Positions 960-36,295 of a DNA stretch of 36,295 bases are shown piece after piece (position 1 is the stretch's first letter; every line of letters starts with the position of its first letter). The position numbers were made by a program, and so were the translations under genes. The stretch comes from a virus. The DNA is taken from positions 1 to 36,295 of the IMG/VR virus record IMGVR_UViG_3300021364_000073. One strand, written 5' to 3'. A model generated the notes under the pieces. That model saw nothing but the letters and a program-made list of their open reading frames with translations, did no database searches and was not told the origin of the DNA.

Positions 960-3900
960 ATGCCAACGATTTCAACGACGACTAATTTAGACCAGATTAC
1001 AGGTTACAGTGATGGCGAAGCATATACGCTGAATCAACAAGCAAATCTCACGATAGACAGTGACAACCGCTATTCACAAAATGGCACAATTCTTGGCACT
1101 ATATCTTATTCTAGTCTATATGACGGTGGAATAAACATTGATGCTAGAGAAACGTGGTGGATACCCTTTGACGCTTCAAGCGGTAATGTGCCAGCGTTGT
1201 CAACATACGGCACAACAGATGTAGAAGTAAGTTCAGTTGGCGTTGGCGAGTTTTTAGGTATCTGGGCAAATCTTGGCGATTCAGCTCCAATGACAGCAGG
1301 TACAGCATTGCCCACTACTGGCTATGTAAAACTAAGAAAAAAAACAGGTACTATTGCAGATGATGATGTACTCACGTTTACAAACAACTCAGCAACGGTA
1401 ACAGTCAATTCAGCAACAGGCGGTCAGCGAGGGTGGTTATTAGTACACGCAAAAGTAGGATACTTTGTAGAAACATACAATTTTGCAAATTACTTTAATA
1501 TGTATGGTGATTGGTTTGAACTTGGTGTTTCAGATGGTAGTAATTCTCAAACATTCCAACATTTTTGCGAAACAGCTCCAGCAGCAGTACAGGTAGAAAC
1601 AGGAAACGGAACTGGTGTGTACGAATGGTATTGGAATTTATCAAGCACAAATTATTCAATTTATTATTCAAGTGATTATTTAGATACAAGCGACAGAAGC
1701 CGAGTCTACGACTGGAATAGCACAGGGTTACTTACTTTTTCAAATGGTACACTTGGCAAAGTTCCTCCGAATGGCGCAAGAATTAGAGTTCCAAACCTTG
1801 CAATTTTTGCTTATGACTCAAGCTACAACAGAAAACTTTGGACTGATAACGGTTATGACGATACCCGTTCTTGGAACTTAGAAGTTAGAGGGTCTAGAGG
1901 ACCATTCAATACAAGCACAATAGATTGCACTAGCGGTGGCATTACCACATCTGGATACACAAAACCGATAGTCAAGAACTCATGCGCTCCGAATTTTATT
2001 AGCGTTGGTACAGAAGAAACAACAATGCAGGATTGCGGTTTTGCATATTTCTCAACAAACAATAATCAAAGTTTCAATATTTCTGATTGTCTAAAAGGAA
2101 CAATGACTAAAGTTAGTTGGCACACCTATGTTGGTAACAAGACTTCAACAATCAATAATTTCGATGATTGTACTTGGACTGATTGCGAATTTTTTACTTT
2201 CAACAGCAATGTTTTCAATAATTGCGATAACAATGTTTTTAACAACTGCATTTTTGGGAAAGAACAAAGTAGTAGCAGTGGTGTTTTGCAAATAACAAGT
2301 TGCAACAATTTAACAATTAACAACTCACAATTTTATAGCGCAAGGTCAAGAACTGGGTCTCAAAAACTATATAGCTTAAAGTTTACTACATGCGACAGAA
2401 TGGACATCAATAATATTAGTCCAACTCATTGGCGTGGTGGTGTTGGAACTCATGAAGGAATAAACTTAACAACATGCGATAATGTGATTTTACGTGATTG
2501 CGGTTCAGTTGGCAATTATGTTTTATTTGGTGGAACTCAAAAGCCTTTTTATAAGGGTACTAGTGCAAATATTTCAATGTCAGAATTTAATGTTTGTACT
2601 GGCTGGGAAGGAACAGGAACGATTACAACTAGCACAAGCTCAACTACTGTAACTGGTTCAAATATTACAGGAACAGGAACGATTACAACTAGCACAAGCT
2701 CAACTACTGTGACTGGTTCAAGTACAACGTTTGCGACTACAGATCTTGGAATGGTTTTATATGATTCTAATTTGAATTTCATTGGTATCATTGGATCTTA
2801 TGTAAGCCCAACACAAGTTAGACTAGAAGCAAATGCAAATGTAACTTTATCAGGAGAGCCGTTTGTAATTACAACTTTTGCAAGTGCAAGTGTTGGAATG
2901 TTTTTATATGATTTTGACTTAAACGTAATTGGTAGAATTGCAACTTATGTAAGCGCAACAGAAGTTACACTAGAAGCAAATGCAAATGTAACTTTATCAG
3001 GAGAGCCGTTTGTAATTACAAATCACCCTTACAGCTCAGGATTTCCATCAACAAATGAAAGTTTGTATTTCAATGATTCTCATGGCTATGACCAAGAACT
3101 TGCTTGGGGCAGCGTTGCCGATATAGAAAATGCGGTATTGCATAGAGGTGGTGGAACTGGGACATTCGGTGGTCGATATGAATCAGACAAAGGCACACAC
3201 TATGGAACGCTTGTTGATAATAAGGGAATTAACCCGACTCAATTAACTTTGTGCATGTTTTTTGCGGCACAATCAAGCAGAGACAAAAGTTTGCAGTCTT
3301 TAACTCTATCACCAACGACATTAAAGCAATCGGGTGGTGGGCTTTTTTTTGAAAACCTAAACGATACTGCGATTATTGAAACAGTAAATTGGGTCAAAGG
3401 TGCAACAAGTTTTAAGAACGTAAATCCAACACGCAGGGGCGGTAATGCAACAAATATAACATATACTTATGATTTAAATAGCGGGAACGGTTATTCAGGA
3501 ACATTTAAAGCTTTAACAGGTGCTAATTTATCTAGCGAAACTATCTCACCGACAGGTTTTAAGTTAAAGTTAAAAGCAGAATATACAAGTTTAAGTACGG
3601 CAGATTTTATCGCTTCACCATACAGGTTTGAAATATTCTTAAACACAAGCGCAAGCGATTTAGCATCTAATAAACAAGGGACAACCGAATCATTGTATTT
3701 AATTCAAAACAATGAGCCCGACAGTTTAGCAGCGTTTTTCGACAATACTAGTGGCGAATTGAAATACGTGGCAAGTGAAGTAACAACAGGACAAATATCG
3801 CTTTACCCTGAATACTACAGCAATGCGGCAAGCACGATACGAATTAGAAAAGTCGGATATGAGGTTATTCAATTAAACACAACGCAACTCATCTACGGCG

Positions 3901-6002: not shown

Positions 6003-6628
6003 TGCCATATTACAGCGAGCCGTTTACCTTCAATTTTAATACGTCGCTAATAGCCGTCGATAGTGGAGTAGTCGATGTAGACTGCAATACTCTCTATGAT
6101 GCTATCAAGTTAGCGCAATGGAGTGAGGAGGGAATTATCTATGAAAGAATCGGAAAAGGATCAGGGCTTGATGACCTCGGACCAGGTGTCCAGGTCGGTA
6201 TCACCGTCGAGTTATTGGGGTCGTGGCAACTGTTGTTTCCGACCGGGAACTACATCGCACGAATCGCAGGAGGGAATCTCGTCGGAGGGCCAGGGGGAGA
6301 TCCAGTCGCATACTCAGCAGGAGTGCAAACCCTCTTAATTCAGTCAGCAAATAGTACGGTTGTTAGCACGTCGGGAAGCATACCTACAGCTACACAGATA
6401 GCGGATACAGTTTTGAAACGGTCTACAAGTAATGTAGAAGCAAGCGGAACAGGGGACACTTTATCGCTTAAATCGCTTTATGGAATGATTGCTCAAGGCG
6501 TTCATAACACACAAGTTAATGGCTCTAAACTGGTAATAACTAAGAGCGATGACAGCACAACACTAGGCGAGCGCACCATAACAACTGATGCAACCGCATT
6601 ACCGATTACAGGGCTAGATAGTGACTAA
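6002..6628 (+). CDS. Conserved virion-associated protein with a GC-rich mosaic core
   Basis: 208 residues, start overlapping the previous stop (TAATG). The central segment (about residues 45-110) has Gly-rich beta turns such as GNYIARIAGGNLVGGPGGDP and then SAGVQTLLIQSA. I recall this pattern from a widespread short protein next to phage tail genes, but I cannot name the family. This core has very different composition from the rest of the gene (71 of 120 bases G/C at 6181-6300, with many C-ending codons), so it was probably acquired by recombination. The C-terminus is simple beta sequence with a TTITTDATALPITGL tail. Confidence 0.65.
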   Translation: MPYYSEPFTFNFNTSLIAVDSGVVDVDCNTLYDAIKLAQWSEEGIIYERIGKGSGLDDLGPGVQVGITVELLGSWQLLFPTGNYIARIAGGNLVGGPGGDPVAYSAGVQTLLIQSANSTVVSTSGSIPTATQIADTVLKRSTSNVEASGTGDTLSLKSLYGMIAQGVHNTQVNGSKLVITKSDDSTTLGERTITTDATALPITGLDSD

Positions 6629-6950
6629 TGCTGGCTTTCAGAATCATCTACACTTTTTGTATGGCTTACCTGGCGGTATTCTTACTAAGCGAGACACCTC
6701 CGATATTTTGGATCGGTGGCGTAAGTATCAAAAACAGGAGCAGCAGCTTGAAGAGGAATTGGCTGCTAAGCTACTACAAAAACAACAAACTAACATTGAA
6801 ATACCAACTACTATAAAAGAGGATAAACTTGAAGATGTATTAAAAGCAAAATTACATAGCAAGCCGCAATCTGGAGAGCTTGTTGGCGCAGATCGTGTAA
6901 AACGTGTTAAGCTGTTATTATTATTACTAGAATTAGATGATGAAATATAA
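6621..6950 (+). CDS. Small charged protein, unknown
   Basis: 109 residues from a GTG start at 6621 that overlaps the end of the upstream gene. The middle is a strongly charged helix (LDRWRKYQKQEQQLEEELAA) and the C-terminus is a Leu-rich helix (VKRVKLLLLLLELDDEI). The competing ATG at 6628 opens a 62-residue frame that ends early and has hydrophobic, non-gene-like composition, so the GTG frame is preferred. It overlaps the next gene by 14 bases, implying translational coupling. It sits just ahead of the scaffold and capsid genes, so a head-assembly accessory is possible. The family was not recognised. Confidence 0.6.
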   Translation: MTNAGFQNHLHFLYGLPGGILTKRDTSDILDRWRKYQKQEQQLEEELAAKLLQKQQTNIEIPTTIKEDKLEDVLKAKLHSKPQSGELVGADRVKRVKLLLLLLELDDEI

Positions 6951-8339: not shown

Positions 8340-9296
8340 ATGGCAAACTTAGAAGAAGCAATTGTTGCGACCTTGTTTGACCAGTCTGATTCCATAGCTG
8401 ATGAGGTTCTTCACCACAATCCGCTATTGGCAACACTGGACGATCAAGGTCTTGTTCGCAAAGTTTCTGGAGGCTATGAGCTTCGGAAACCTATTATGTA
8501 TAACGATGCTGCCGTAGGTGGATTCTACCAAGGGTATGACTCGTTTGACCTCTCAGCAATCGACGATGCTACTGCATTTCGATTCGCTATTAAGCAAGTA
8601 TATGAGCCAGTGGCTATCAGCGGTCGTGAAAAGCGAGCTAACCGTGATGATGCACAGCTTCTTGACCTTGCTGAAATGAAGATGAAAGCAGCTATTTCTC
8701 GATTGAAGAATACTGTCGGAACTTCACTCCGAGGCGATGGAACTGGATCTGGTGGACTTGAGTTTGATGGTATTAAGAAAGCAATTTCTACTTCTCCATC
8801 TTCAGGTACATACGGAACAATAGATCGTTCAACGAACGTATTTGCTAGAAACTTGGCTGTAAACACAACTCTTAGCGCAACTAACGTGCAAGAGACGGTT
8901 ACAGATACAATTTCGCAGATTGTTCGAGGCGATGAGCAGGTTGATCTTGGACTGTGTGACAGAACTGCTTGGAAGTTTCTACACAGCTCCCTTACAGCTA
9001 TTCAGCGAATCCAAGCTCCTACGAAGAAAGCTATCGGAGGTTTTCGTGCGCTTGCTTATGACGGAGTGGATTTTGTGTTTGATGGCGGTTATGGGTCAGC
9101 GGTTCTTGAAACCAATTCTTGCCGATTGCTCAATACTAAGTATTGGTCTTTCGACATGATTCGAGGAGCTGATTTCAAGCCTTTACAACCACAGATGGAT
9201 CGTCCTATCGACCAAGATGCTTTCTTCACGGTAATTATCGTGGAAGGTAACTTGTGTTGTGCGGCTCCTGCTCTACAAGCTGTAATTTACGCATAG
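8340..9296 (+). CDS. Major capsid protein (HK97-fold type)
   Basis: 318 residues, a typical length for a capsid protein whose scaffold is encoded separately. It has the pattern seen in this class: a helical N-arm (residues 1-30), an extended loop region (YELRKPIMYNDAAVGGFYQG), a long spine-like helix (DDAQLLDLAEMKMKAAISRLK, ~105-125), a Gly-rich turn (GDGTGSGGLEFDGI), and a beta/P-domain C-terminal half ending FFTVIIVEGNLCCAAPALQAVIYA. It follows the scaffold-like gene and precedes a decoration-like gene. The hairpin at 8315-8337 may set its expression. Assignment is by position and pattern. Confidence 0.85.
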   Translation: MANLEEAIVATLFDQSDSIADEVLHHNPLLATLDDQGLVRKVSGGYELRKPIMYNDAAVGGFYQGYDSFDLSAIDDATAFRFAIKQVYEPVAISGREKRANRDDAQLLDLAEMKMKAAISRLKNTVGTSLRGDGTGSGGLEFDGIKKAISTSPSSGTYGTIDRSTNVFARNLAVNTTLSATNVQETVTDTISQIVRGDEQVDLGLCDRTAWKFLHSSLTAIQRIQAPTKKAIGGFRALAYDGVDFVFDGGYGSAVLETNSCRLLNTKYWSFDMIRGADFKPLQPQMDRPIDQDAFFTVIIVEGNLCCAAPALQAVIYA

Positions 9297-23505: not shown

Positions 23506-23570
23506 TTATAAGCAAGAAACAATAAAAACAGCCAAACAACTATAATTGCAGTTAAAGGGTAATCGCTCAT
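23502..23570 (-). CDS. 22-residue membrane microprotein
   Basis: MSDYPLTAII, then a run of Val/Trp/Leu/Phe ending LAYK: a short polar N-terminus and one transmembrane helix. Its ATG overlaps the stop of the RS-repeat gene upstream (AGATGAGC) and its TGA overlaps the ATG of the 201-residue gene (AAATGAAC). Exact ATGA coupling on both sides makes a real gene likely despite its size. The function is unknown. Confidence 0.55.
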   Translation of the reverse strand: MSDYPLTAIIVVWLFLLFLAYK

Positions 23571-23674
23571 CTACCGTACCTGGTTTTATACCTAGACCCT
23601 GACCAAGACCCAGACCTAGACCTAGACCTAGATCCAAAACGATTAGGCCAATGAGTTCCTCTCATTTTAATCAT
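23567..23674 (-). CDS. Short RS-repeat protein, copy 2
   Basis: 35 residues: MIKMRGTHWPNRFG, then Ser-Arg/Ser-Gly dipeptides, ending RYKTRYGR. It is a paralogue of the upstream gene (same MIKxRGTHWPxRFG head and RYG-basic end) with a shorter repeat tract. The start overlaps the upstream stop (AAATGATT). The repeat comes from GGTCTA-type hexamers. Function unknown; a short basic RNA- or DNA-binding or assembly peptide is one possibility. Confidence 0.5.
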   Translation of the reverse strand: MIKMRGTHWPNRFGSRSRSRSGSWSGSRYKTRYGR

Positions 23675-23855
23675 TTACCGTACCCTGACCTATACCAATA
23701 GCAAGACCCAGACCAAGACCAAGATCGACACCAAGACCACGACCCAGACCCGGATCCAGAAAAGTATAAACACCCAGACCTAGCGCTAGACAAAGACAAA
23801 GACCTCGACAAAGACCTAGACAAAGACCCAGACCTAGACCTAGATCCAAAGCGAC
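23580..23855 (-). repeat. Degenerate hexamer repeat tracts in two tandem ORFs
   Basis: Two tracts (about 23598-23634 and 23690-23852) are built of GACCTA/GACCCA/GACCAA hexamers on the plus strand. Each abuts a conserved ~45-bp block (AGATCCAAA, GGCCAATGAG, CTCTCA, TTTAATCAT) at 23628-23674 and 23840-23886, which encodes the shared head of the two ORFs. The length difference suggests slippage or unequal exchange. Confidence 0.85.
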
Positions 23856-23886
23856 TAGGCCAATGAGTCCCTCTCACTTTAATCAT
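23671..23886 (-). CDS. RS/GS-repeat protein, copy 1
   Basis: 71 residues: MIKVRGTHWPSRFG, then a long (RS/GS/LS/WS) dipeptide region with a few Cys, Tyr and Trp, ending YRSGYGK. Start ATGATT overlaps the stop of the gene 23883-24194 (GTATGATT) and the stop overlaps copy 2. Low-complexity DNA makes automatic callers likely to skip it, and an alternative frame gives a Leu-Gly repeat (23667-23849). The conserved head in copy 2 and the coupling choose this frame. Confidence 0.55.
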   Translation of the reverse strand: MIKVRGTHWPSRFGSRSRSGSLSRSLSRSLSLSSARSGCLYFSGSGSGSWSWCRSWSWSGSCYWYRSGYGK

Positions 23887-25472: not shown

Positions 25473-25767
25473 TGCTTTCTCCTTTACTTAGTTTTGTTAA
25501 AATACTCTCTACTACTGTGTTTGCTCGTGCGGTTTCTTTAGGCAAACTCTTTATCTCAATGCCTTTTTTCTTCATCCACTCCATAGCCTTGGCGCACACT
25601 GTAACTACGTCGGCAAGCTCATCACCGAAGATAGTTTCAGACTTTTTCCACTGGCCTTCTCTTTTATCGAGATAAACTTTTTGAATCTGAAAGCTAAAAT
25701 AATCTCCGTTTCGCCAAACAACTAGCTGAACATTATTGCTTTTTATTGTGCCAATACGTTGTCCCAT
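25453..25767 (-). CDS. Paralogue of the SSB-like protein, lacking the acidic tail
   Basis: 104 residues. VQLVVWRNGDYFSFQIQKVY-LDK, then a helix ending AMEWM, lines up position for position with the downstream protein (VW/IW, QK30, Y-x-DK, WM at 64-65). The C-terminus differs: Lys/Ser/Thr-rich without the DDDxDLPF tip. First gene of leftward block B. It might form mixed oligomers or bind a different substrate. Ribosome site AAAGGAAGCAAGCACT. Confidence 0.65.
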   Translation of the reverse strand: MGQRIGTIKSNNVQLVVWRNGDYFSFQIQKVYLDKREGQWKKSETIFGDELADVVTVCAKAMEWMKKKGIEIKSLPKETARANTVVESILTKLSKGESNAKTST

Positions 25768-25791
25768 AGTGCTTGCTTCCTTTGTTCAACT

Positions 25792-25820
25792 GTTATAGCA
25801 TGGCAAATTATGGAAAACAA
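25792..25820 (-). promoter_or_regulatory. Candidate promoter of leftward block B
   Basis: On the minus strand TTGTTT (25820-25815), 17-base spacer, TATAAC (25797-25792). The start codon of the first block B gene is at 25767. The -35 lies inside the first codons of the divergent HTH gene, so an HTH protein binding here could control both directions. Confidence 0.45.
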
Positions 25821-25998
25821 TAATAATCATAAAAAATGGCTGAGGACAAGAGAGCTATGCGAATACCTGGCGATTCCGAGAAGCACCTGCGAATTGTTGA
25901 TAAGACGAGGGATGCCACACATACGGATCGGAAAAGCGAGGCGGTGGAATCCAGAAGAAGTGGAGAAGTGGCTTCAAGAGAACGGTTCCTCAAAGTAG
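25810..25998 (+). CDS. Excisionase/MerR-type helix-turn-helix protein
   Basis: 62 residues from ATG 25810 (an in-frame ATG at 25759 would overlap the divergent gene). WLRTRELCEYLAIPRSTCEL, then LIRRGMPHIRIGKARRWNPE and EVEKWLQ, is the classical HTH_17 layout: helix-turn-helix, then the wing with KxRRW. Such proteins act as excisionases or small regulators. No integrase is present, so regulation or origin binding is more likely. It overlaps the next gene in a different frame. Confidence 0.75.
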   Translation: MENNNNHKKWLRTRELCEYLAIPRSTCELLIRRGMPHIRIGKARRWNPEEVEKWLQENGSSK

Positions 25999-26234
25999 AC
26001 AAGCGACTTTTAAGCCTTGAATTAAACCCCAGTGAGATTCTTACTTTTGCTTACGTCGATCAATTTCGAGGGGCAAAGGTTTGCTTTGCCACAAATGAAA
26101 CGATTGGAAAAGAGATTGGGATTTGTGAAAGGCAAGTAAGAAGAAACCTAGCCAAGCTAAAAAAACAGAGGTTAGTAAGAGCCTTTTACGAGGGTAAAAC
26201 TCGCTTCTTAAAAACTTATCTCAATACACGATAG
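25968..26234 (+). CDS. HTH_36-type replication-initiator-like protein
   Basis: About 88 residues if started at GTG 25968. The frame is open back to ATG 25836 (132 residues), but that would overlap the HTH_17 gene by 163 bases in another frame, which I consider unlikely. LELNPSEILTFAYVDQFRGA, then CFATNETIGKEIGICERQVRR-NLAKLKKQRLV, is a winged-helix HTH_36 pattern common at the start of phage and plasmid initiators. Iterons begin 13 bases after its stop, as expected for an initiator and its origin. A -1 frameshift near 25990-25995 (TCAAAG before TAG) could fuse it to the upstream HTH; this is speculative. Confidence 0.65.
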   Translation: MASRERFLKVDKRLLSLELNPSEILTFAYVDQFRGAKVCFATNETIGKEIGICERQVRRNLAKLKKQRLVRAFYEGKTRFLKTYLNTR

Positions 26235-26246
26235 TGGGGTGACAAA

Positions 26247-26320
26247 ATGTCCGCCTACCCGGACATAGATGTCCGCCCTACTAGGACATAAATGTCCACC
26301 TTACCCGGACATAAATGTCC
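26247..26320. repeat. Palindromic iterons, 22-23 bp spacing
   Basis: ATGTCC at 26247, 26269, 26292 and 26315, and GGACAT at 26261, 26284 and 26307, form three copies of the 14-bp palindrome GGACATnnATGTCC plus one half site. The 23-bp spacing keeps them on nearly the same helix face. The array is followed by the AT-rich stretch. Candidate initiator-binding iterons; a repressor operator array is the alternative. Confidence 0.8.
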
Positions 26321-26451
26321 ACATATAAGATAATATTATTATAATAATTTATAAGAATAATTATAAAACAAACATAGCTATCAGTAAGCGTAGTTAGGCT
26401 TTGTAAGATTAAAAATAGATAAATAATATTATAAATATTTAATTAAGATTG

Positions 26452-26528
26452 ATTTTAAGGTGTCTAGCTTCGCCGTAGAGACGTTTTCTACCTCGAACCT
26501 ATGTCATAGGTAGGGTCGACCTTAAAAT
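26452..26528. other. Structured segment enclosed by a 10-bp inverted repeat
   Basis: ATTTTAAGGT (26452-26461) pairs with ACCTTAAAAT (26519-26528). Inside are GTCT/AGAC (26462-26465/26479-26482) and ACCTAT-GTC-ATAGGT (26497-26511, alternatively CTACCT/AGGTAG). A three-way-junction RNA or a DNA cruciform is possible. It lies between the AT-rich stretch and the next promoter. Confidence 0.5.
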
Positions 26529-26563
26529 GGCTTAAAATGGATTCTACGGCTTCACTTGTTTTG

Positions 26564-26592
26564 TTGTGAAGAAGCTCAAAAAAGGGTATAAT
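26564..26592 (+). promoter_or_regulatory. Strong candidate sigma70-type promoter
   Basis: TTGTGA (26564-26569), exactly 17 bases, TATAAT (26587-26592). The predicted start near 26599 is only ~69 bases before a good terminator, and no plus-strand gene lies between. Confidence 0.55.
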
Positions 26593-26598
26593 GAGGGG

Positions 26599-26667
26599 GT
26601 GTTAAAACATTCATGTTTTAGCCTCCTTTAAGACCTCACGGTTTAGTCGCCGTGGGGTCACTTTTTT
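26599..26667 (+). ncRNA. Candidate small RNA antisense to the shared early leader
   Basis: Bounded by the promoter above and the terminator at 26632-26667. It starts with the hairpin TAAAACAT-TC-ATGTTTTA (26603-26620), then a single-stranded stretch containing CCTCCTTTA. The reverse complement of 26612-26630 contains AAAGGAGGCTAAAACATG, nearly the leader of many block A genes (for example AAAGGAGACTAAACATG). The RNA could therefore pair with their ribosome sites and start codons. Alternatively the minus strand is a relic leader followed by a 12-codon frame (26576-26614). Confidence 0.45.
26632..26667 (+). terminator. Rho-independent terminator, rightward
   Basis: GACCTCACGG (26632-26641), loop TTTAGTCG, CCGTGGGGTC (26650-26659, one G-U pair), then ACTTTTTT. 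It would end both the HTH-gene transcript and the short RNA unit. Confidence 0.8.
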
Positions 26668-26668
26668 G

Positions 26669-26700
26669 AAAAAAAAAGGGGGGGCTAATTAGCCACCCCC
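26669..26700 (-). terminator. Rho-independent terminator, end of leftward block A
   Basis: On the minus strand GGGGG-U-GGCU, loop AAUU, AGCC-CCCCC, then nine U (26677-26669). It begins eight bases after the end of gene 26708-26986 and faces the rightward terminator. Confidence 0.85.
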
Positions 26701-26707
26701 AAAGTGC

Positions 26708-26986
26708 TTACTCTCCAAAGAGTCCATCCAGATGATCCTGCATCCAGTAGAACGCATCGAGCTGGCCCTTTTCAAACTCAGTCAATCTTTTTTCCGCATC
26801 TCCTATTTGCTTTTCGATAGCTAACAAAAACTCCTCAAAGTAAGCTCGGATATTTTCCGATCCAGCCTCGTAAGCTACTTGATAGTCCTCCCTCTGTTGT
26901 GGCGCTCGCTTAAATGGGGTGTAATGCAAAGCAAACTCCCTAGCGTCTCTAATTATTTGATTTTCTGTTAGTTTTTGGACTTCCAT
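26708..26986 (-). CDS. Small acidic helical protein, unknown
   Basis: 92 residues, last gene of block A. Helical, Glu/Gln-rich (FEEFLLAIEKQIGDAEKRLT, then EFEKGQLDAFYWMQDHLDGLF). Leader AAAAGGAGATAAGAACATG is a variant of the early consensus. It overlaps the ribbon-helix-helix-like gene by 19 bases. No family was recognised. Confidence 0.65.
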   Translation of the reverse strand: MEVQKLTENQIIRDAREFALHYTPFKRAPQQREDYQVAYEAGSENIRAYFEEFLLAIEKQIGDAEKRLTEFEKGQLDAFYWMQDHLDGLFGE

Positions 26987-27177
26987 GTTCTTATCTCCTT
27001 TTCTAGTATTGCATAAATTAAGTCTTTAATACTTACACCGTCTTCTTTTGCTTGCTCTTTAATTGCGTCGATATGGTCTTGCTTTACCCACGCAGAGAAC
27101 CGCACAAAACCGTTGTAACTCTCTTTTTCTTTCCGTCTTTTTTCAGGGTAAAAATTAAATATAGGTTTATATACCAT
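26968..27177 (-). CDS. Ribbon-helix-helix-like protein
   Basis: 69 residues from ATG 27177. GGAGG lies nine bases upstream of this ATG but only three from the GTG at 27183, so the ATG is preferred. FVRFSAWVKQDHIDAIKEQA, then KEDGVSIKDLIYAILEKEI, resembles a strand-helix-helix DNA-binding unit of the CopG/Arc kind: one beta strand for the groove and two helices. A regulator of early genes is possible. Overlaps genes on both sides. Confidence 0.6.
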   Translation of the reverse strand: MVYKPIFNFYPEKRRKEKESYNGFVRFSAWVKQDHIDAIKEQAKEDGVSIKDLIYAILEKEIRTWKSKN

Positions 27178-27775
27178 TTTCACTTACCTCCACGATTAAA
27201 GACTGTAACTTCTCAAGCCTAATCGGTGACAAGAAAATGCCTTCTTTGACTTCCTTGGCTCCATTGCTTTCAAGGTACTTAACAGATGGTGCAAGCTGAT
27301 CCTCTGATAGCTTGCTTGTGTCGTAGTATGTTTTGACTGCTTTCCTCGGCTTAGGAGTCGGAACCTGCTTTCCAGCACTAGCTTGGTTTCCGTCGTCGTC
27401 CTCTGGTGCGATTCCTAAAGCACTCATCAAGCTGTACCTTCGACAGTAAGTCAAAGCTGATCCATAGCCTTGAGCGTCCTGTTTAGTTACAGGGATTGAC
27501 AGCTCGCCTAGATAAAGCCTCTCACCAGTATGGTAGAGAAGCTCAGTTTGGACTGTTACCCAACCTAGCTCGCTTGGCTTAGTAAGCTGAATTAGTGCAA
27601 AGCCTTGTTCGTGCAAAGCATCTATAACAGCTTCGACACAAGCTCCTAAATCGGCGTATTTACTCCTGAAATGGGGGTTTGAACTTGTTTTTAGTGCTTT
27701 TCCAAAGCCTTTTTGAGCATCGACAAAAGCCTCATGGATTGTTTTTGTTTCTTGTTTTTCTTCTTTCTTAGTCAT
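27167..27775 (-). CDS. ERF-family single-strand annealing protein
   Basis: 202 residues. TSSNPHFRSKYADLGACVEA, VTVQTELLYHTGERLYLGEL and QGYGSALTYCRRYSLMSALG, then IAPEDDDGN, are the conserved core of ERF recombinases (as in P22), which anneal complementary single strands. The C-terminal ~70 residues are a Lys/Pro linker and a small helical domain. Its partners here are likely the SSB-like proteins and the resolvase-like nuclease in block B. Start behind GAGGTAAAAAAC. Confidence 0.9.
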   Translation of the reverse strand: MTKKEEKQETKTIHEAFVDAQKGFGKALKTSSNPHFRSKYADLGACVEAVIDALHEQGFALIQLTKPSELGWVTVQTELLYHTGERLYLGELSIPVTKQDAQGYGSALTYCRRYSLMSALGIAPEDDDGNQASAGKQVPTPKPRKAVKTYYDTSKLSEDQLAPSVKYLESNGAKEVKEGIFLSPIRLEKLQSLIVEVSENGI

Positions 27776-27780
27776 GTTTT

Positions 27781-28233
27781 TTACCTCATTGTTTTAGCTA
27801 ATTGTAAAACCTTTTTTGCGTAACCTTTACCGCAATCTGTTCGACCGCAATTATATACTCGCAAAGCCTTTTCTATGCTCCCTACCCTTGCTATCTCTTC
27901 TTGTAAGATGATAGCTCCGCAAGCCAAGTTTAGACTTGGATCCCAAAGCTGGTGAGGCTTCAGTCCACATCTCTTGGCATTAAAAGGCATTACTTGAGTC
28001 AAGCCTCTTGCGCCTTTCTTGCTTAGTGCCTTAACTTGGAAGCTACTCTCTATTTGCACCAAAGCCTCTAGCAAGCTCGTAGGGAGTTTATGCTTTCGGG
28101 CTACCCTGCTAACCTCGGCCTCGATTACAGCACGAGAGGGACTAACAGGTAGCCTCCAAAAGCGTTTAATATGATAGGATGCGCTCTCTACATCGCAACC
28201 GACTATAAAGAGCGCAACGAGTATTAGTCTCAT
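27781..28233 (-). CDS. Lytic transglycosylase (SLT type), putative lipoprotein
   Basis: 150 residues from ATG 28233; the frame is open to 28296, but 28233 is coupled by ATGA to the small gene upstream. Residues 1-13 (MRLILVALFIVGC) are a lipoprotein-like signal with Cys13. The catalytic Glu is E62 in VQIESSF, followed by GARGLTQVMP (75-83) and YNCG near 128 where the family has AYNxG. It cleaves glycan strands. It sits among replication/recombination genes instead of the lysis cassette, so a role in entry, exclusion or early wall remodelling is possible. Confidence 0.8.
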   Translation of the reverse strand: MRLILVALFIVGCDVESASYHIKRFWRLPVSPSRAVIEAEVSRVARKHKLPTSLLEALVQIESSFQVKALSKKGARGLTQVMPFNAKRCGLKPHQLWDPSLNLACGAIILQEEIARVGSIEKALRVYNCGRTDCGKGYAKKVLQLAKTMR

Positions 28234-28391
28234 CTTTTGGATACGACCTTGACAGGATCGTTGCCTAAAATTTGTGTCTGAACACCGATCCAGCATGTAA
28301 CCGCACCAACCACTACAAATATATGCAAAATGGTCACTACAACCGCTGATACACTGAAAAGGTCTGCTTTTATTTTATGTAAAATGCTCAT
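28230..28391 (-). CDS. 53-residue single-span membrane protein
   Basis: MSILHKIKADLFSVSAVVVT, then ILHIFVVVGAVTCWIGV and a basic end (KVVSKR). Basic N-terminus and one ~22-residue transmembrane helix. ATG 28391 has leader AAAGGAGGACTAAGACAATG, and the TGA overlaps the transglycosylase start (ATGAGA). Position suggests it works with the transglycosylase, perhaps as an anchor or regulator. The family was not recognised. Confidence 0.65.
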   Translation of the reverse strand: MSILHKIKADLFSVSAVVVTILHIFVVVGAVTCWIGVQTQILGNDPVKVVSKR

Positions 28392-28395
28392 TGTC

Positions 28396-28587
28396 TTAGT
28401 CCTCCTTTACGTTGTAATGCTCACCTTCTATGCCGTATGAGCTTTTTATGCCTTCCTTGTCGTTTCTTTTTTGCTCATCTGCTATGCAACGATAACAAAT
28501 GCCATAACCTGCATCTCGGTTCCACCACTGGCGACCTCGACAATATGATCCACAACAACAACAAATTAGTCTTTTTACTTTGTCCAT
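28396..28587 (-). CDS. Small Cys-rich zinc-finger-like protein
   Basis: 63 residues. C9-C12, C16, C31 and C34 (ICCCCGSYCRGRQWWNRDAG, then YGICYRC) form a probable zinc-binding treble clef or ribbon. The acidic/Lys tail follows. Leader AAAGGAGACTAGAAACATG overlaps the stop of the upstream gene. I recall similar CRGRQWWNRDxGYG proteins in other phages but know no function. Confidence 0.7.
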   Translation of the reverse strand: MDKVKRLICCCCGSYCRGRQWWNRDAGYGICYRCIADEQKRNDKEGIKSSYGIEGEHYNVKED

Positions 28588-28601
28588 GTTTCTAGTCTCC
28601 T

Positions 28602-28859
28602 TTATTTTAAGTCTAATGTTTCTTGCTCACACTGAACAAAATAGCATTTCAATGGAACCGCATTGTGGCGAGTCATACGGCTTGATTCTTCTCGCTCATC
28701 TATTCTGTACAAACCAGCTTTTGCACCTACTTCAAAACCAGAGCAAGCTGAAAGGGTAAGCATGAAATACAAGCCTACGCCTAAAGCGATTGTATAGACT
28801 AGGTGTGTAATAAATACGTCCATTTTGTCAGCGATTTCATTTAGTTTGTCGTGATTCAT
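28602..28859 (-). CDS. Small membrane protein with lipobox-like LSAC
   Basis: 85 residues. One transmembrane stretch (LVYTIALGVGLYFMLTLSAC, ~20-39) ends in LSAC-SG, which fits a lipobox, although the N-terminus before it is long and acidic. A hydrophilic tail follows with two more Cys. It could be a lipoprotein or a simple membrane anchor. Leader AAGGAGGAATAAATCATG is a diverged form of the early consensus. Confidence 0.6.
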   Translation of the reverse strand: MNHDKLNEIADKMDVFITHLVYTIALGVGLYFMLTLSACSGFEVGAKAGLYRIDEREESSRMTRHNAVPLKCYFVQCEQETLDLK

Positions 28860-28941
28860 GATTTATTCCTCCTTGTTTTTTCATTAAAGATCCTGAACAA
28901 GCGATCAAGCCTACCCCCACGGCGTAGGAGTAGATTGATAG

Positions 28942-29262
28942 CTAGTAATTGCCTAAACGGAACTCGCCAACCATCTCTAAAGCTAAAACCTCCGCTAGTT
29001 TCAACCGTTCGGCCTTAGGAAACATCTGCTTTATTGAGTCGGTCATAGATCCGTATTGCTTAAGGTACTCTTTGGCCGCTGGAAGCAATAAATACCGATC
29101 AAGGTATTTGATAGCCCGATCTAAAGAGAACGTGTTTGCTTGGTGGAACTTGCCTAGTGTTTTATAAGCTGGCCAGTAGTACGCCGGTGCAAAGAACCGA
29201 TCGTGTTCACAGTAATATCCTAGCTCTACCATCTCGTGACTTAGTGTTTCTCGTGTTCTCAT
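28942..29262 (-). CDS. Hypothetical early protein
   Basis: 106 residues, helical and aromatic (HDRFFAPAYYWPAYKTLGKF, then KYLDRYLLLPAAKEYLKQYG). No motif was recognised. Leader AAAGGGGACTAAACATG differs from the consensus by one base, and a 7-bp hairpin (29289-29306, AGGCCAC-CGGA-GTGGCCT on the plus strand) precedes it. Confidence 0.65.
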   Translation of the reverse strand: MRTRETLSHEMVELGYYCEHDRFFAPAYYWPAYKTLGKFHQANTFSLDRAIKYLDRYLLLPAAKEYLKQYGSMTDSIKQMFPKAERLKLAEVLALEMVGEFRLGNY

Positions 29263-29288
29263 GTTTAGTCCCCTTTAATGTTGTTTAT

Positions 29289-29316: not shown

Positions 29317-29502
29317 TTAGTTTACTGGTGGCAAAGCGTAATCATTGATCTCACAATCCATCTCGATCATCTCTTTACCGTAATCGGTTAGATCACTGTA
29401 TATCGCTTGAAATGCTGATAGGTCGCTATCTGATAGTCCGCCCTCATTGAAAGCGATAATTAGATCCATTAATTGAGCTTGTTTAATTGCTGCTGTTATC
29501 AT
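29317..29502 (-). CDS. Small acidic early protein
   Basis: 61 residues, helical, net acidic (LIIAFNEGGLSDSDLSAFQA, then IYSDLTDYGKEMIEMD). Perfect consensus leader AAAGGAGACTAAACATG. Preceded by the 9-bp-stem hairpin at 29536-29561. Small acidic early proteins of phages often bind host enzymes, but nothing specific can be assigned. Confidence 0.65.
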   Translation of the reverse strand: MITAAIKQAQLMDLIIAFNEGGLSDSDLSAFQAIYSDLTDYGKEMIEMDCEINDYALPPVN

Positions 29503-29535
29503 GTTTAGTCTCCTTTGTTACTGTCTACTGTAGCC

Positions 29536-29577: not shown

Positions 29578-30168
29578 TTATTCTTCTCGCATCGGCATGA
29601 TACAGGCTTTCTTGTCACCTGATTCAAACCAGATCGGCGCACCTTCTTTTTCTTGGCTTAGAGTCCAGACGTTAGATTCTTTGACTAAATCTAATAAGTA
29701 ATAACCGTTTACGATAAACTTCAGCTCCTCTTGTTTTGGATGGCCGTTAACCCTGTAACAGATGTCTAGGCCATCATCTCGCCCAGTATTGAGATCGTGC
29801 GCTCTCCTTGTGAAGTATACTGTTTCACCCACAAAATGCACTGTTATGCCAGCTCGCTTTTCTTTTCGGTAATTGCTTTCAGTACCTACCCCAACGGCAT
29901 CTACTAAGCCTTTTAGCCTCTTGATTGTATCCTTTTCTAATTGTAGATGATGTGTCGGAGTAGCATCTTTCCATATCTGATCGATACGTATCGCATCTTT
30001 ACCGCTAACTTGCTTCGGAGTGTCTCCGTGATCGGCTTCGGTTTCTATGGCATGTAACCGATGGCCATCGGTTGTGACCATGTAGTTCCGATACAGAATA
30101 ATCTCTGTCATATTGTCTCTATCGGCTTTTCTTGCGGCTTTAATAAGTGTGTCTAGGTATTTATTCAT
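29578..30168 (-). CDS. Mini sliding-clamp (DnaN-like) protein
   Basis: 196 residues from ATG 30168; the frame extends to 30198 but only reads through the leader AAAGGAGACTAATAACATG. TTDGHRL (32-38) and the C-terminal IMPMR (190-194) are signatures of bacterial beta clamps (ATDGHRLA and MPMRL). YYLLDLVKES, then APIWFES, fits clamp domain 3. It is roughly half the size of a full clamp, so it may hold about one and a half domains. It could assemble into a phage clamp or interfere with the host clamp. Moderately sure. Confidence 0.65.
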   Translation of the reverse strand: MNKYLDTLIKAARKADRDNMTEIILYRNYMVTTDGHRLHAIETEADHGDTPKQVSGKDAIRIDQIWKDATPTHHLQLEKDTIKRLKGLVDAVGVGTESNYRKEKRAGITVHFVGETVYFTRRAHDLNTGRDDGLDICYRVNGHPKQEELKFIVNGYYLLDLVKESNVWTLSQEKEGAPIWFESGDKKACIMPMREE

Positions 30169-30188
30169 GTTATTAGTCTCCTTTACTC

Positions 30189-30237
30189 GTAGCACCATGC
30201 TACACCTACGGCCTCACGTAGAGGCCTAAGGTCTAGC
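30189..30237 (-). repeat. Two-hairpin intergenic element, copy 1
   Basis: GTAGC-ACCAT-GCTAC (30189-30203), then CCT..GGCCTC-ACGTA-GAGGCC..AGG (30205-30231) and GTCTAGC. Same layout as copy 2 at 30542-30588, with compensating base changes in the second stem. Confidence 0.8.
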
Positions 30238-30243
30238 TTAGAT

Positions 30244-30522
30244 CTACTTGAAATATATCTCGCTAGCGTACTTTGAACGGCTAGTAAACGCTTCGGTCAC
30301 TAGGTCGGCTTCTGTTAGCACAAGGGTTTTATCTTTTGAGAGATACAGTTCAATCTGCTCAATCGCACCGAGGAGCAGACAGTCGCCCTTGTCGATTCCG
30401 TCCTCGATTAGGTCCGCAACGGTTGCCTTTACCTCGTTAGCGGGTACATGGGCTGAACACCAGTCGTTGATGTTCTTCTTGGCTGCTGCAGTTAGATCTA
30501 CTGCTATTAGATTCTTATTCAT
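30244..30522 (-). CDS. Small early protein
   Basis: 92 residues, acidic and helical (VKATVADLIEDGIDKGDCLL, then EQIELYLSKDKTLVL). No motif was recognised. Leader AAGGAGACTAAAACCATG. It stands between the two copies of the two-hairpin element, so its cistron may be cut out as a separate RNA. Confidence 0.65.
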   Translation of the reverse strand: MNKNLIAVDLTAAAKKNINDWCSAHVPANEVKATVADLIEDGIDKGDCLLLGAIEQIELYLSKDKTLVLTEADLVTEAFTSRSKYASEIYFK

Positions 30523-30541
30523 GGTTTTAGTCTCCTTATCA

Positions 30542-30588
30542 GTAGCACCATGCTACACCAAGGCCCCTCGTGAGGGGCTATGGTCTAG
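30542..30588 (-). repeat. Two-hairpin intergenic element, copy 2
   Basis: GTAGC-ACCAT-GCTAC (30542-30556), then CCA..GCCCCTC-GT-GAGGGGC..TGG (30558-30583), then GTCTAGC. The stem bases differ from copy 1 but pairing is kept. Confidence 0.8.
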
Positions 30589-30589
30589 C

Positions 30590-30850
30590 CTAGTCCTCAT
30601 ACTCGCTTATATAAGAGCCACAGTCATCGCAATGTATTCCACCGTCCACGTTCTCCATCGCTAACACAGATAGCTCATAACTAGCGTTCTCTGCATATGC
30701 AGTGTAACAGTCATTTACATGGCAACGCAGATTGATAGCCAAGCACTCGGCGCAGATGCAGCTTGCATTACGCTGTACTAACATCCGCTGATACATCGTA
30801 GGGGATAGCACTGCTTTGATTGCTCGTCGGTCGTTGGTGTTTAATTTCAT
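30590..30850 (-). CDS. Cys-rich zinc-binding early protein (first gene of block A)
   Basis: 86 residues from ATG 30850; upstream codons to 30913 lie in the leader. Seven cysteines: C31, C33, C36, C43, C48 and the knuckle C74-DD-C77. Charged N-terminus (NTNDRRAIKAVLSPTMYQRM). A zinc-stabilised small protein of unknown role. Leader AGAGGAGACTAACAACATG. Promoter-proximal, so probably the most strongly expressed early product. Confidence 0.65.
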   Translation of the reverse strand: MKLNTNDRRAIKAVLSPTMYQRMLVQRNASCICAECLAINLRCHVNDCYTAYAENASYELSVLAMENVDGGIHCDDCGSYISEYED

Positions 30851-30869
30851 GTTGTTAGTCTCCTCTGTT

Positions 30870-32476: not shown

Positions 32477-32645
32477 AGACGATATAAAGCTATGCAGGTG
32501 CGATAAGTGTCAATGTGTAGTTACGTTTGTTCAGAAAGAGACATTTATTGATTGTCCTGAGTGCCAAGAAATTATTGAACCAAGCAAAACTCCTGCTACT
32601 TGGGATGATTTAGATACTTACCTAAGAAGCCATGCCAATGGATGA
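32469..32645 (+). CDS. Zinc-ribbon protein 3
   Basis: 58 residues from ATG 32469, ribosome site AAAGGGGGC. C9, C11, C14, C16 and C29-PE-C32 form the zinc site, followed by an acidic helix (WDDLDTYLRSHANG). The upstream in-frame start at 32448 is less likely. It overlaps the large terminase start by 14 bases. Confidence 0.7.
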   Translation: MIKDDIKLCRCDKCQCVVTFVQKETFIDCPECQEIIEPSKTPATWDDLDTYLRSHANG

Positions 32646-34059
32646 GCTAGATAGCGGCAGGGATGAGTTTGTTGTTTGGTCTCCTCAAGCTGGACCTCAA
32701 GAAGCCTTAGTTCATTGCCCTATTACGTTAGTTGGCTACGGAGGGGCACGAGGTGGAGGTAAGACTGACGGCGTATTAGGCAAGTTTGCTATTAAGCAAG
32801 AGCAGTTAGGAGAAGCATTTAACGCTATATTCTTCCGTAAAGAACTACCCCAAGCAGATGACCTTATAGAGCGAGCTAAGCAGATATATTTACCCTTAAA
32901 AGCTCACTGGCAGGACCAAAAAAAGCAGTTTACCTTTCCTAGCGGCGGTAGGTTACGTTTTAGGCCACTAGCTAATGATAGTGATGCTGAGAAGTATCAG
33001 GGGCAAAATCTATCTGATTGTGCTATTGAGGAGGCAGGTAACTATGCTGAACCTAGCTGTATTTGGAAGCTATTTGGAGCCTTGCGAGGTAAAGGTGGTG
33101 GGCAGATTATCCTTACCTTTAACCCTGGTGGTGTAGGGCATCACTGGCTAAAAGAGTTCTTTATTAAGCCTGCTCCAAAAGGCATGAAAATGCTGCAAAA
33201 GAAGCTGCCGAATGGAAAACATTTTGATTATATCTATATACCAAGTAGGGTACACGACAATCAGATTCTATTAGCAAAAGACCCTGAGTACATAGATCGC
33301 TTGCATATGGTAGGTAGTCCAGAGCTTGTGCGAGCGTGGCTAGAAGGAGATTTTGAAATCCATGAAGGTAGCTATTTTCCTGAGTTTAGTAGCAAACATA
33401 TTATTAGCCCCTTTAATGTTCCAAAACACTGGCCTCGCTACTTGGGTTACGATTGGGGCTACCGCAGTCCTTTTGCTGCTGTGTGGGGTGCTGTTAGTTC
33501 TGGAAGGGATGACGCTGGCAATGAAGTACCATATCCTAAAGGAGCAATTGTCATATATCGAGAAATGCATGGTAAAGGAATCGACAACGAGCAACAAGCA
33601 GACAGAATTGCAAGTGCCTCTGTCGGAGAAGGAGTGGTTGCAGTAGCCGACCCCTCCATATTTGCTCATGATGGTGGCCCTAGTATTAACGACCAATTTA
33701 ATAAAGTATTTGCTAAGTATCAGCATCCTAGCTTTAGACGAGCTGACAACGACCGTATATCGGGATGGTCGCAAATTAGACAGCGATTAGTTCACAAACC
33801 CGATCCTTTGCTCTTTATATTTGCTACTTGCCCTTATTTGCTAGAAACTTTACCATCTTTAGCTATAGACAAACGAAAACCAGAGGATGCCGATACGACT
33901 GGCCCTGACCATGCTTGCGATGCGCTGAGATATTTGTGCAAGGCTAGGTTAATTGATGCCAAATGGGAGCAAACTGAAGCCGCTAGACAGCCAGGAGTTA
34001 TAGTTTTAGCCGATTATGTGAATAAAGTTCGGAAACGACAAAAACAGGCAAGGATATGA
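32632..34059 (+). CDS. terL: Terminase large subunit
   Basis: 475 residues (a second ATG at 32638 is possible). Walker A GGARGGGKT (37-45), Walker B-like SDCAIEEAGN (128-137), coupling motif LTFNPGG (161-167). Nuclease acidic residues in YLGYDWGY (D274), AVADPSIF (D340) and GPDHACDALRY (D426/D430). It is the ATP-driven packaging motor and headful or site nuclease. The stop overlaps the portal start (ATGA). Confidence 0.95.
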   Translation: MPMDELDSGRDEFVVWSPQAGPQEALVHCPITLVGYGGARGGGKTDGVLGKFAIKQEQLGEAFNAIFFRKELPQADDLIERAKQIYLPLKAHWQDQKKQFTFPSGGRLRFRPLANDSDAEKYQGQNLSDCAIEEAGNYAEPSCIWKLFGALRGKGGGQIILTFNPGGVGHHWLKEFFIKPAPKGMKMLQKKLPNGKHFDYIYIPSRVHDNQILLAKDPEYIDRLHMVGSPELVRAWLEGDFEIHEGSYFPEFSSKHIISPFNVPKHWPRYLGYDWGYRSPFAAVWGAVSSGRDDAGNEVPYPKGAIVIYREMHGKGIDNEQQADRIASASVGEGVVAVADPSIFAHDGGPSINDQFNKVFAKYQHPSFRRADNDRISGWSQIRQRLVHKPDPLLFIFATCPYLLETLPSLAIDKRKPEDADTTGPDHACDALRYLCKARLIDAKWEQTEAARQPGVIVLADYVNKVRKRQKQARI

Positions 34060-36295
34060 AAAACCCACAACCCCTTATAAAGAAATATACTCCGAGGTGG
34101 TGGAAAGCACAAATATCCGAAGCTGAAGAAAGACGTAAATCTTTTATAGACCAAGCAGAAGAGTCTATAAGACTATACAACGCTCAAAAAGACCGTACAG
34201 TAATGAATGATGTAGAACGCCGCATAAACGTGTGGTGGTACTGCATAAATACCCTTTTACCTGCTTATTACAGCTCAACCCCACAAGCAGAAGTCGATTT
34301 AAGAAAACGTAGCGGAAGTTTGCCTTATCAGCTAGGGAGCGTCATTTTAGAGCGAAACACTCAATACGCTATGGACGTACATTTTAGCTTTGATCAAGTA
34401 GGGTATCTAGCCGCATTGCAGTTTTTGCTTACCGGACAAGCTGTATTGTGGGCAAGGTACGCACCAAAGTTTGAGACTGTGATGCAAGAAATTGCATTGG
34501 TAAAAACACCTGATGGTTTAATGACAGGAGACGGCAAACCCTATGAAGGCGATACGACTAATCTTGTCGAAACTGATTCTAACCTTGTCATGGTGTCTGT
34601 TGAGGTTGAGCGCAAAATTGACGAAAAAGCGATCTTGGACATTGTTCAATACAACGATTATTTTTGCTCTGATGCCAGAACAGAAGCCGAAATAGAATGG
34701 AGAGCTAGACGAGCATATCTTAGCCGTGAAAGAGCTAATGAAATGTTTGGTGCAGAAGTAGCTGATACTTTGCAATACACAAGCTATCCAGACGTTATTA
34801 AGAAAAGCATACGCCGAAAAGATGACAAATATGAGGGAAAAGCTGAAGTATTTGAAATATGGTGCGAAGAAACCGACAAGGTTTATTGGCTTAGTAAGGA
34901 CGCCGAAAACCCTATCATTGAGGCAGGGCCGCCGCCAATTAAGTACGAAAAGTTTTATCCTTGTTCAGTTATTACACAATCTGATGACCCCGATAGTGTT
35001 ATTCCTGTATCCGATTATGCTCATGTTAGAGATCAGGTTTTAGAGGTCGAACGACTTACAACTCGTATTCATGCCGTAACACAAGCTATTCGTACTAATA
35101 GTGTATATGATTCTACATTAGGCGACCAAATAGAGCAGCTTCTTTCCGGCGACCTTAAACTCATCCCTGTTACTAACTGGCCAAGCTACAAACAGCGTGG
35201 TGGTTTAGCTAATGGTGTAGAAGGGTTTAACATTGCGCCGTATATCGAAGCCTTACAGGTACTACAAACAGCTAGACAAACAGCACTAGGGCAGCTTTAC
35301 GAAACTCTAAAAGTATCTGATCTATTAAGAGGTACAAGTGAGCAATACAAGTCTGCAACCGCTAATCGGCTTGAAAATGCTTGGTCAAGCATGGGGCTTA
35401 TTGTTAGGCAAAACATGTTTGCTAAGTTTGTGTCCGATGCAGTTAGCAATTTATCGGCTATTATTGCAGAGCAATTTGACGAAGAAACAATCTTGGATAT
35501 TGGTAATGTTGCAGAAGTAGTAGGGCCACTAGTAAAAGAACCTGCTCCAGCTCCAGAACCAATGCCGCAAGAAGAGGGTATGCCACCGCAAGAAATGCAG
35601 CCTCCAGTTCCAATGCCAATGCCTTCTCCTGAGGAACAGGTGCAGCAAATGGCGCAAGCTATCATTGCTATACTACGAGACAACAAAGAACGGTCCTACC
35701 GTATTCAGGTAAACACCGATTCTATGGTTGCGGTAAATGAAAGCCAGCAGCAACAAGAGGGTATGCAGCTTATACAAACTACAGGTGCTTTTTTCGACCA
35801 AATGAGAGGTCTTGTAGAGCAGTACCCACCTTTGATGCAGTTTAGCATGAGTTTATTTCAAAATATGATTAAACGATTTAAGGGGGGCAAGGAATTAGAT
35901 GCGGTGTTTACGCAAGGTTTTGAAGCGTTGGGCGAGATTATTAAGGCTAAGGAAGAAGCGGCTAAACAACCGCCGCCACCGGATCCAGTCATGCAAGAGG
36001 TGCAAGGGCGGTTGCAAATTGCACAAATAGAAGCTGAAGCTCGTATGGCATCTACTCAAATGGAGATGCAAGATAAGGCAGTTAAGAATCAAATTGCAAT
36101 GCAAGAGCAGCAAGTTAAGATGCAGCGTGATCAATTAGAAGCTCAATTAGCTGTGCAAAAGTATCAGCTAGAAGAGTATATAGCTCAACAAGAACTTGCT
36201 ATTAAACAACAAGAGGTTCAGGTCAAGCAAAGCAAAGTGCAAGTAGATATGTTAGAGGTGCAAGCTGAAAGCACTAACGAATCTACAAAGCAGGG
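34056..36295 (+). CDS. Portal protein, N-terminal part (continues at 1-443)
   Basis: ATG overlaps the terL stop. The frame is open to the window end. MKNPQPLIKKYTPRWWKAQI, then INVWWYCINTLLPAYYSSTP, RTEAEIEWRARRAYLSRERA, YPCSVITQSDDPDSVIPVSD and SDLLRGTSEQYKSATANRLE, are portal-type segments. A Pro/Met/Gln-rich linker follows (near 35540-35640), then a Gln/Glu coiled coil that continues at the start of the window. At ~851 residues in total it is long for the class, because of the ~280-residue C-terminal coiled extension. Confidence 0.85.
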   Translation, partial: MKNPQPLIKKYTPRWWKAQISEAEERRKSFIDQAEESIRLYNAQKDRTVMNDVERRINVWWYCINTLLPAYYSSTPQAEVDLRKRSGSLPYQLGSVILERNTQYAMDVHFSFDQVGYLAALQFLLTGQAVLWARYAPKFETVMQEIALVKTPDGLMTGDGKPYEGDTTNLVETDSNLVMVSVEVERKIDEKAILDIVQYNDYFCSDARTEAEIEWRARRAYLSRERANEMFGAEVADTLQYTSYPDVIKKSIRRKDDKYEGKAEVFEIWCEETDKVYWLSKDAENPIIEAGPPPIKYEKFYPCSVITQSDDPDSVIPVSDYAHVRDQVLEVERLTTRIHAVTQAIRTNSVYDSTLGDQIEQLLSGDLKLIPVTNWPSYKQRGGLANGVEGFNIAPYIEALQVLQTARQTALGQLYETLKVSDLLRGTSEQYKSATANRLENAWSSMGLIVRQNMFAKFVSDAVSNLSAIIAEQFDEETILDIGNVAEVVGPLVKEPAPAPEPMPQEEGMPPQEMQPPVPMPMPSPEEQVQQMAQAIIAILRDNKERSYRIQVNTDSMVAVNESQQQQEGMQLIQTTGAFFDQMRGLVEQYPPLMQFSMSLFQNMIKRFKGGKELDAVFTQGFEALGEIIKAKEEAAKQPPPPDPVMQEVQGRLQIAQIEAEARMASTQMEMQDKAVKNQIAMQEQQVKMQRDQLEAQLAVQKYQLEEYIAQQELAIKQQEVQVKQSKVQVDMLEVQAESTNESTKQ
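36169..36294. repeat. 126-bp terminal overlap with bases 1-126
   Basis: Identical to 1-126. The next base differs (G36295, C127). The overlap length is typical of a circular assembly cut at the k-mer size, inside the portal gene. Confidence 0.9.

Follow-up and report, generated by a model that had tools for sequence, protein, structure and literature searches.

A candidate trans-acting antisense RNA matched to the early leaders of an uncultured phage family

The stretch of DNA analyzed here, referred to as the window, comprises an entire virus record, G000, with a length of 36,295 bases. A 127-base repeat with one mismatch is found at its two ends (1-127 and 36169-36295), and the record therefore probably represents a complete phage genome. 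Its late genes are oriented rightward, including those for the terminase (32632-34059) and the major capsid protein (8340-9296), and early genes run leftward, including those for an Erf-like annealing protein (27167-27775) and a DNA-polymerase-processivity-like protein (29578-30168) that corresponds to phrog_947. No tyrosine integrase was found in the window. The phage belongs to a large, wholly uncultured family, and the terminase of the nearest cultured isolate is at most 41% identical. The site of interest lies beyond the terminator that ends the leftward gene run at 26708, and its features are as follows:

26564-26592, plus strand: sigma-70-type promoter-like site, TTGTGA-17-TATAAT, 10 of 12 consensus matches, with a placement that is conserved in relatives
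26573-26614, minus strand: region of a 12-codon frame, ATG just below 26615 and stop near 26576, not kept in relatives
26599-26667, plus strand: predicted 69-nt antisense small RNA, its 5' end inferred from the promoter
26601-26622, plus strand: 5' hairpin (arms 26601-26609 and 26614-26622), the 3' arm complementary to the leader/AUG part of the targets
26612-26629, plus strand: anti-leader stretch, the exact reverse complement of AAAGGAGGCTAAAACATG
26623-26631, plus strand: seed CTCCTTTAA (anti-Shine-Dalgarno), unpaired in the predicted fold
26632-26667, plus strand: intrinsic terminator, an 11-pair stem (26632-26659) with the loop UUAGUC, then the U-tract ACTTTTTT
26675-26703, minus strand: leftward terminator hairpin and T-run closing the leftward gene run after the ORF at 26708-26986 (-17.4 kcal/mol at 26700)

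Several other elements were observed in this part of the genome and its counterparts. At 25759-26234 (plus strand), two overlapping frames encode an HTH_17-type protein and then an HTH_36, replication-initiation-like protein. The same overlap is kept in three phages, namely the window, L006 (587-1011) and L031 (7201-7625, minus strand), and in L025 the two frames are separate genes. Three 23-bp direct repeats follow at 26254-26322, each with a GGACAT(A)(A/G)ATGTCC-type palindrome, and a very AT-rich stretch comes next; together with the adjoining replication-like gene, these repeats look like a phage origin. The 108 nt between this presumed origin and the small RNA (26455-26562, minus strand) fold better than shuffled sequences (z -2.5), and L006 has a similar sequence at the equivalent place. 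L031, and this relative only, has a 177-aa ORF (6271-6804) between the leftward terminator and the small-RNA site.

Farther away, tandem repeats with a 12-bp period (23567-23886) encode Gly-Leu or Ser-Arg-rich repeats depending on the frame, and a Ser/Trp-rich ORF in L025 (11432-11638) resembles this region. L025 also carries a large, intein-like insertion in its terminase gene (3-2285, minus strand; CLTGDTKV...VSHN) that contains another ORF (182 aa, HNH-like). Within the early region of the window, hairpins GTAGCACCATGCTAC with a G+C-rich stem repeat lie upstream of the neighboring early genes 30168 and 30522 (30168-30566), perhaps with a role in RNA processing.

The promoter, the hairpin-U6 terminator and the single-stranded seed left by a 5' hairpin had all been proposed in a preliminary description of this DNA, and each was borne out by the computed architecture. 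A single promoter-like match is no better than chance, with 29 such sites found in the region against 31.2 expected. The fold of the RNA at 26599-26667 is far more stable than that of its shuffles (-26.9 kcal/mol versus -10.75 ± 2.46, z -6.57), and its predicted order is a 5' hairpin, an unpaired CUCCUUUAA and the terminator. The seed is also predicted to be unpaired in the relative L006 and in the diverged relative L003.

The RNA was proposed to act on a leader carried by at least nine leftward genes, and its center is indeed the exact reverse complement of AAAGGAGGCTAAAACATG, which had been described as nearly that leader. An ungapped search for the leader pattern, allowing up to 3 mismatches, found just one other site; because the spacing between the Shine-Dalgarno (SD) sequence and the ATG varies, such a search misses most leaders. 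The exact pattern with mismatches was dropped and duplex energies were used instead, by which 10 of the 20 leftward leaders pair at z -3 or better:

30846-30867, minus strand: leader of the gene starting at 30850, -20.9 kcal/mol, z -4.0
30517-30538, minus strand: leader of the gene starting at 30522, -20.7 kcal/mol, z -3.7
30163-30186, minus strand: leader of the gene starting at 30168 (DNA polymerase processivity-factor-like), -23.2 kcal/mol, z -4.2
29494-29517, minus strand: leader of the gene starting at 29502, -20.1 kcal/mol, z -3.2
29253-29279, minus strand: leader of the gene starting at 29262, -23.8 kcal/mol, z -4.1
28851-28875, minus strand: leader of the gene starting at 28859, -21.1 kcal/mol, z -4.8
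28583-28605, minus strand: leader of the gene starting at 28587, -21.5 kcal/mol, z -3.8
28381-28410, minus strand: leader of the gene starting at 28391, the strongest predicted duplex, -25.9 kcal/mol, z -4.9
27774-27799, minus strand: leader of the gene starting at 27775 (Erf-like ssDNA annealing protein), -16.8 kcal/mol, z -3.1
26979-27002, minus strand: leader of the gene starting at 26986, -19.7 kcal/mol, z -3.5

These predicted targets include replication and recombination genes, and pairing in the ten duplexes runs mostly across SD, spacer and start codon, except that for the gene at 27775 it lies partly upstream of the SD. Across all 20 leftward leaders, the 5' part of the RNA pairs with a mean energy of -17.1 kcal/mol, compared to -10.95 ± 0.96 for 300 shuffled RNAs, none of which was as good. 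Against late leaders the corresponding value is -12.5, versus -11.0 for shuffles, and 7 of the 300 shuffles were as good. A genome-wide detector scored the window's site at -5.5 against leftward genes and -2.5 against rightward genes, and in four unrelated phages it found no site beyond z -2.6. When the terminator-like sites of each genome were ranked by anti-leader complementarity, the slot in which the element lies took first place in 12 of 15 genomes and second place in another two.

Relatives of the phage (L006, L003/L004 and L031) were reached through neighboring proteins, and scans with the terminase then revealed a large family (the best 80 of 226 and the best 80 of 269 confirmed relatives). 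One scan of bacterial and archaeal genomes with a neighboring protein returned no relative. Relatives have their early genes in the same order around the slot, and a slot search for a hairpin and T-run, with no anti-SD required, yielded candidates in nearly every contig that covers the slot. Strong slot candidates with an anti-leader stretch were taken as the element set, which comprises 23 contigs in 15 sequence groups (A-O). Throughout this set, a promoter-like site, an anti-leader stretch and a terminator occupy the same slot, on the strand opposite the early genes.

The predicted RNAs of the relatives are 58-88 nt long, and their commonest fold is again a 5' hairpin, an unpaired anti-SD and a terminator; groups K and L are without a stable 5' hairpin, and in groups H and O the anti-SD is partly inside a stem. 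A terminator was found in the slot of all groups A-O. In most groups, promoter-like scores at the right distance from the terminator are above the local background, with a Stouffer z of 7.1 across the 15 groups; those of F, G and I are weak and unremarkable. Comparison of close relatives reveals compensatory changes in the stems: all three pairs of the terminator stem that differ between the window and L006 are of this kind, as are three changes between L055 and L176, and L071 and L131 differ by two compensatory changes and one broken pair. The terminator loop UUAGUC, a candidate second contact with the leader sequence GACUAA, is kept in the window and L006.

Individual phages have leaders of different classes (GGAGACTAAAAC for the window, GGAGAAAAACACT for L031 and L120, CTAACTAGGAG for L055, GGAGACACGGACT for L105 and GGAGAATATATGAGA for L113), and the anti-leader stretch tracks the class of its own phage, also at bases outside the SD core. 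To quantify this covariation, every RNA was scored against the early leaders of every phage, row and column means were removed, and the result was permuted. Gene starts came from a simple caller, and any gene starting within 150 nt of the element was left out. The double-centered own-phage diagonal was -1.61 kcal/mol (permutation sd 0.26, z -6.2, 15 groups), with 0 of 100,000 permutations as good, giving p ≤ 1e-5, a value that is optimistic because the groups share ancestry. The preliminary description had named independent divergence of leader and antisense in relatives as the observation that would count against an antisense RNA; in the 15 groups the anti-leader stretch instead tracks the phage's own early leaders. 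Adding the displaced lineage described below brought the test to 16 groups and z -6.6.

The matching is specific to early leaders, as own-phage matching to late leaders gave no signal (z 0.1). Shuffling the early leaders outside the SD and start codon largely abolished the signal (z -1.9, -0.8 and -0.8 in three replicates), and reversing the RNA gave z -1.1. A duplex test with the SD and start codon masked by N likewise gave no signal, although in our reading this test cannot work because N breaks the helix. A PWM test restricted to positions outside the SD core was used in its place; with early leaders it yielded p 6e-5, compared to 0.73 with late ones. Taken whole, the terminator part displayed weak own-phage matching only (z -2.5). 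Individual groups vary in how well the RNA ranks its own leaders: group B ranks them 9th or 10th, groups D and E 5th-6th, as their leader class also occurs in related groups, and group O last, on a contig that holds few early genes or leaders. The co-change of RNA and leader across about 16 lineages suggests that a single RNA may turn down early protein synthesis.

In the lineage represented by L089/L133 and L179, the slot contains no element. We had predicted that lineages of this kind would have less uniform leaders; this prediction failed, and the ensuing search located a similar element at a distance of about 3 kb, here on the strand that carries the early genes. It consists of a promoter-like site and a terminator without a stable 5' hairpin, is present also in L086, and has no early gene opposite it. 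The match to its own leaders, compared to shuffles, is clear in L179 (0/300) and modest in L133 (18/300), where the genome-wide detector had missed it. Since the displaced element was found via the complement of the leader, this complementarity is not independent evidence, and it is the terminator and the presence in three lineages that are.

The antisense side of any leader resembles other leaders, and complementarity alone therefore cannot distinguish an antisense RNA from a leader. Indeed, the slot in L006 was outscored by a site at position 3932 that is the antisense side of the leader of an ordinary gene. The preliminary description had cautioned that the minus strand reads exactly like the other early gene junctions and might be a decayed gene cassette. 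On that reading, the site would be the leader and start codon of a lost early gene, and the plus-strand promoter and terminator would be coincidental. In the window the minus strand does present a hairpin followed by SD, spacer and ATG, with a frame of 12 codons; in L006 the frame has 20 codons. However, the claim of exact likeness to other junctions is wrong: upstream hairpins occur at some other leftward gene starts, but at none of them is a 10/12 promoter-like site accompanied by a hairpin and T-run on the plus strand. The site is also located past the leftward terminator, and about half of the groups (B, C, D, E (L061), G, J and O) have no minus-strand start codon and yet retain the plus-strand architecture. 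This architecture without a minus-strand start, the separate ribosome-binding site (RBS) of the neighboring leftward gene in groups D, E and F, about 25-35 nt from the antisense stretch, and the displaced element on the early-gene strand decide the strand question. The decayed cassette, contradicted in several relatives, was rejected as quite unlikely.

The same observations bear on whether the RNA could be a cis-acting antisense RNA for the neighboring leftward gene only, its resemblance to other leaders being a by-product of the shared leader. Such a role is possible in groups K, L and M, where the neighboring gene starts within the antisense stretch, and the known phage antisense RNAs P22 sar, lambda OOP and aQ each pair with single genes (PMC12197685). 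Nevertheless, neither the window's element nor the displaced one is encoded opposite a target gene, as the opposite strand of the window has no real gene left and the displaced lineage has no opposite early gene. The offset RBS in D, E and F and a match to own leaders that was measured with the neighboring gene left out also argue against this reading, and we consider it very unlikely. It is highly improbable that leaders and site are recombination linkers ('boundary sequences') homogenized within each genome by an annealing recombinase, with no antisense function needed. These phages encode an Erf- or RecT-like annealing protein and the leaders within several of the genomes are shared, yet linkers leave the promoter, the terminator, the compensatory stem changes and the strand switch unexplained. 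Finally, the terminator might serve only to end the rightward pair of replication genes (25811-26234), with a functionless RNA, as a rightward HTH gene lies upstream in groups A, B, C, G, I and J. We find this hardly credible, since groups D, E, F and K-O keep the element without that HTH gene in the slot, and it leaves the anti-leader covariation unexplained.

It is likely, on the evidence of covariation with each phage's own early, and not late, leaders in 15 groups, that the element encodes an antisense RNA acting in trans, by which translation initiation is blocked at many early genes, as originally proposed. In accordance with what is expected of a trans-encoded small RNA, it is, as judged from sequence, an independent short unit with its own promoter and intrinsic terminator, and it lies apart from its predicted targets and pairs imperfectly with several mRNAs. 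We infer that the RNA is synthesized from the sigma-70-like promoter and would end at its own terminator. The unpaired anti-SD between the two hairpins would make the first contact with the SD of an early mRNA, and pairing would then extend into the 3' arm of the 5' hairpin. In this way the SD and spacer, and in many targets also the start codon, would be covered and ribosome binding prevented. Because one leader is common to many early genes, one RNA could lower the translation of many together. Our guess is that early expression is thereby shut down or limited as the RNA accumulates on replicating phage DNA.

No Rfam 15 family matched in the window above its curated cut-off, and the open-access literature searched yielded no phage RNA described as acting on a leader common to early genes. 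Among bacteria, trans-acting small RNAs whose anti-SD seeds are C-rich, such as RsaE of S. aureus, present an unpaired CUCC-type seed beside a terminator hairpin and have many mRNA targets. Unlike in these, the complement in the phage RNA extends across both spacer and start codon, and it varies with the leader of the phage itself. The nearest system in mode of action is RegA of phage T4, a protein that competes with the ribosome at the initiation regions of about 30 T4 mRNAs (PMC3014915); there too one regulator serves many initiation sites, but RegA reads loosely similar AU-rich sites, whereas the RNA described here would pair with a shared leader. Nearest in kind are two phage antisense RNAs, the small sar RNA of P22, which blocks initiation of translation by pairing with an mRNA, and c4 of P1/P7, which pairs around a ribosome-binding site (PMC12197685). 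In contrast to the many distant targets predicted here, in a phage with no tyrosine integrase found, sar has the single target ant and serves lysogeny. Likewise, c4 acts on a single target (ant mRNA) in immunity, and the likeness to it noted here is one of mode.

We see about an even prospect that these elements form a family of short RNAs that switch off most early translation at once, each phage having a private leader 'address' and RNA and leader evolving as lock and key. If so, the RNA would be the counterpart of T4 RegA, and it might also block the early mRNAs of a related superinfecting phage. The known phage antisense RNAs act on single genes, whereas the present one, with a length of about 60-90 nt, is predicted to pair with many early initiation sites of its own phage, and the match between RNA and leader is maintained though both sides change between lineages. 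This would offer an explanation for the occurrence, in unrelated early genes of a single phage, of shared leader bases that are not required for translation. The many matched RNA/leader pairs represent a natural one-to-many antisense design that lends itself to tests of specificity, and the early-to-late switch of a large uncultured phage family becomes testable.
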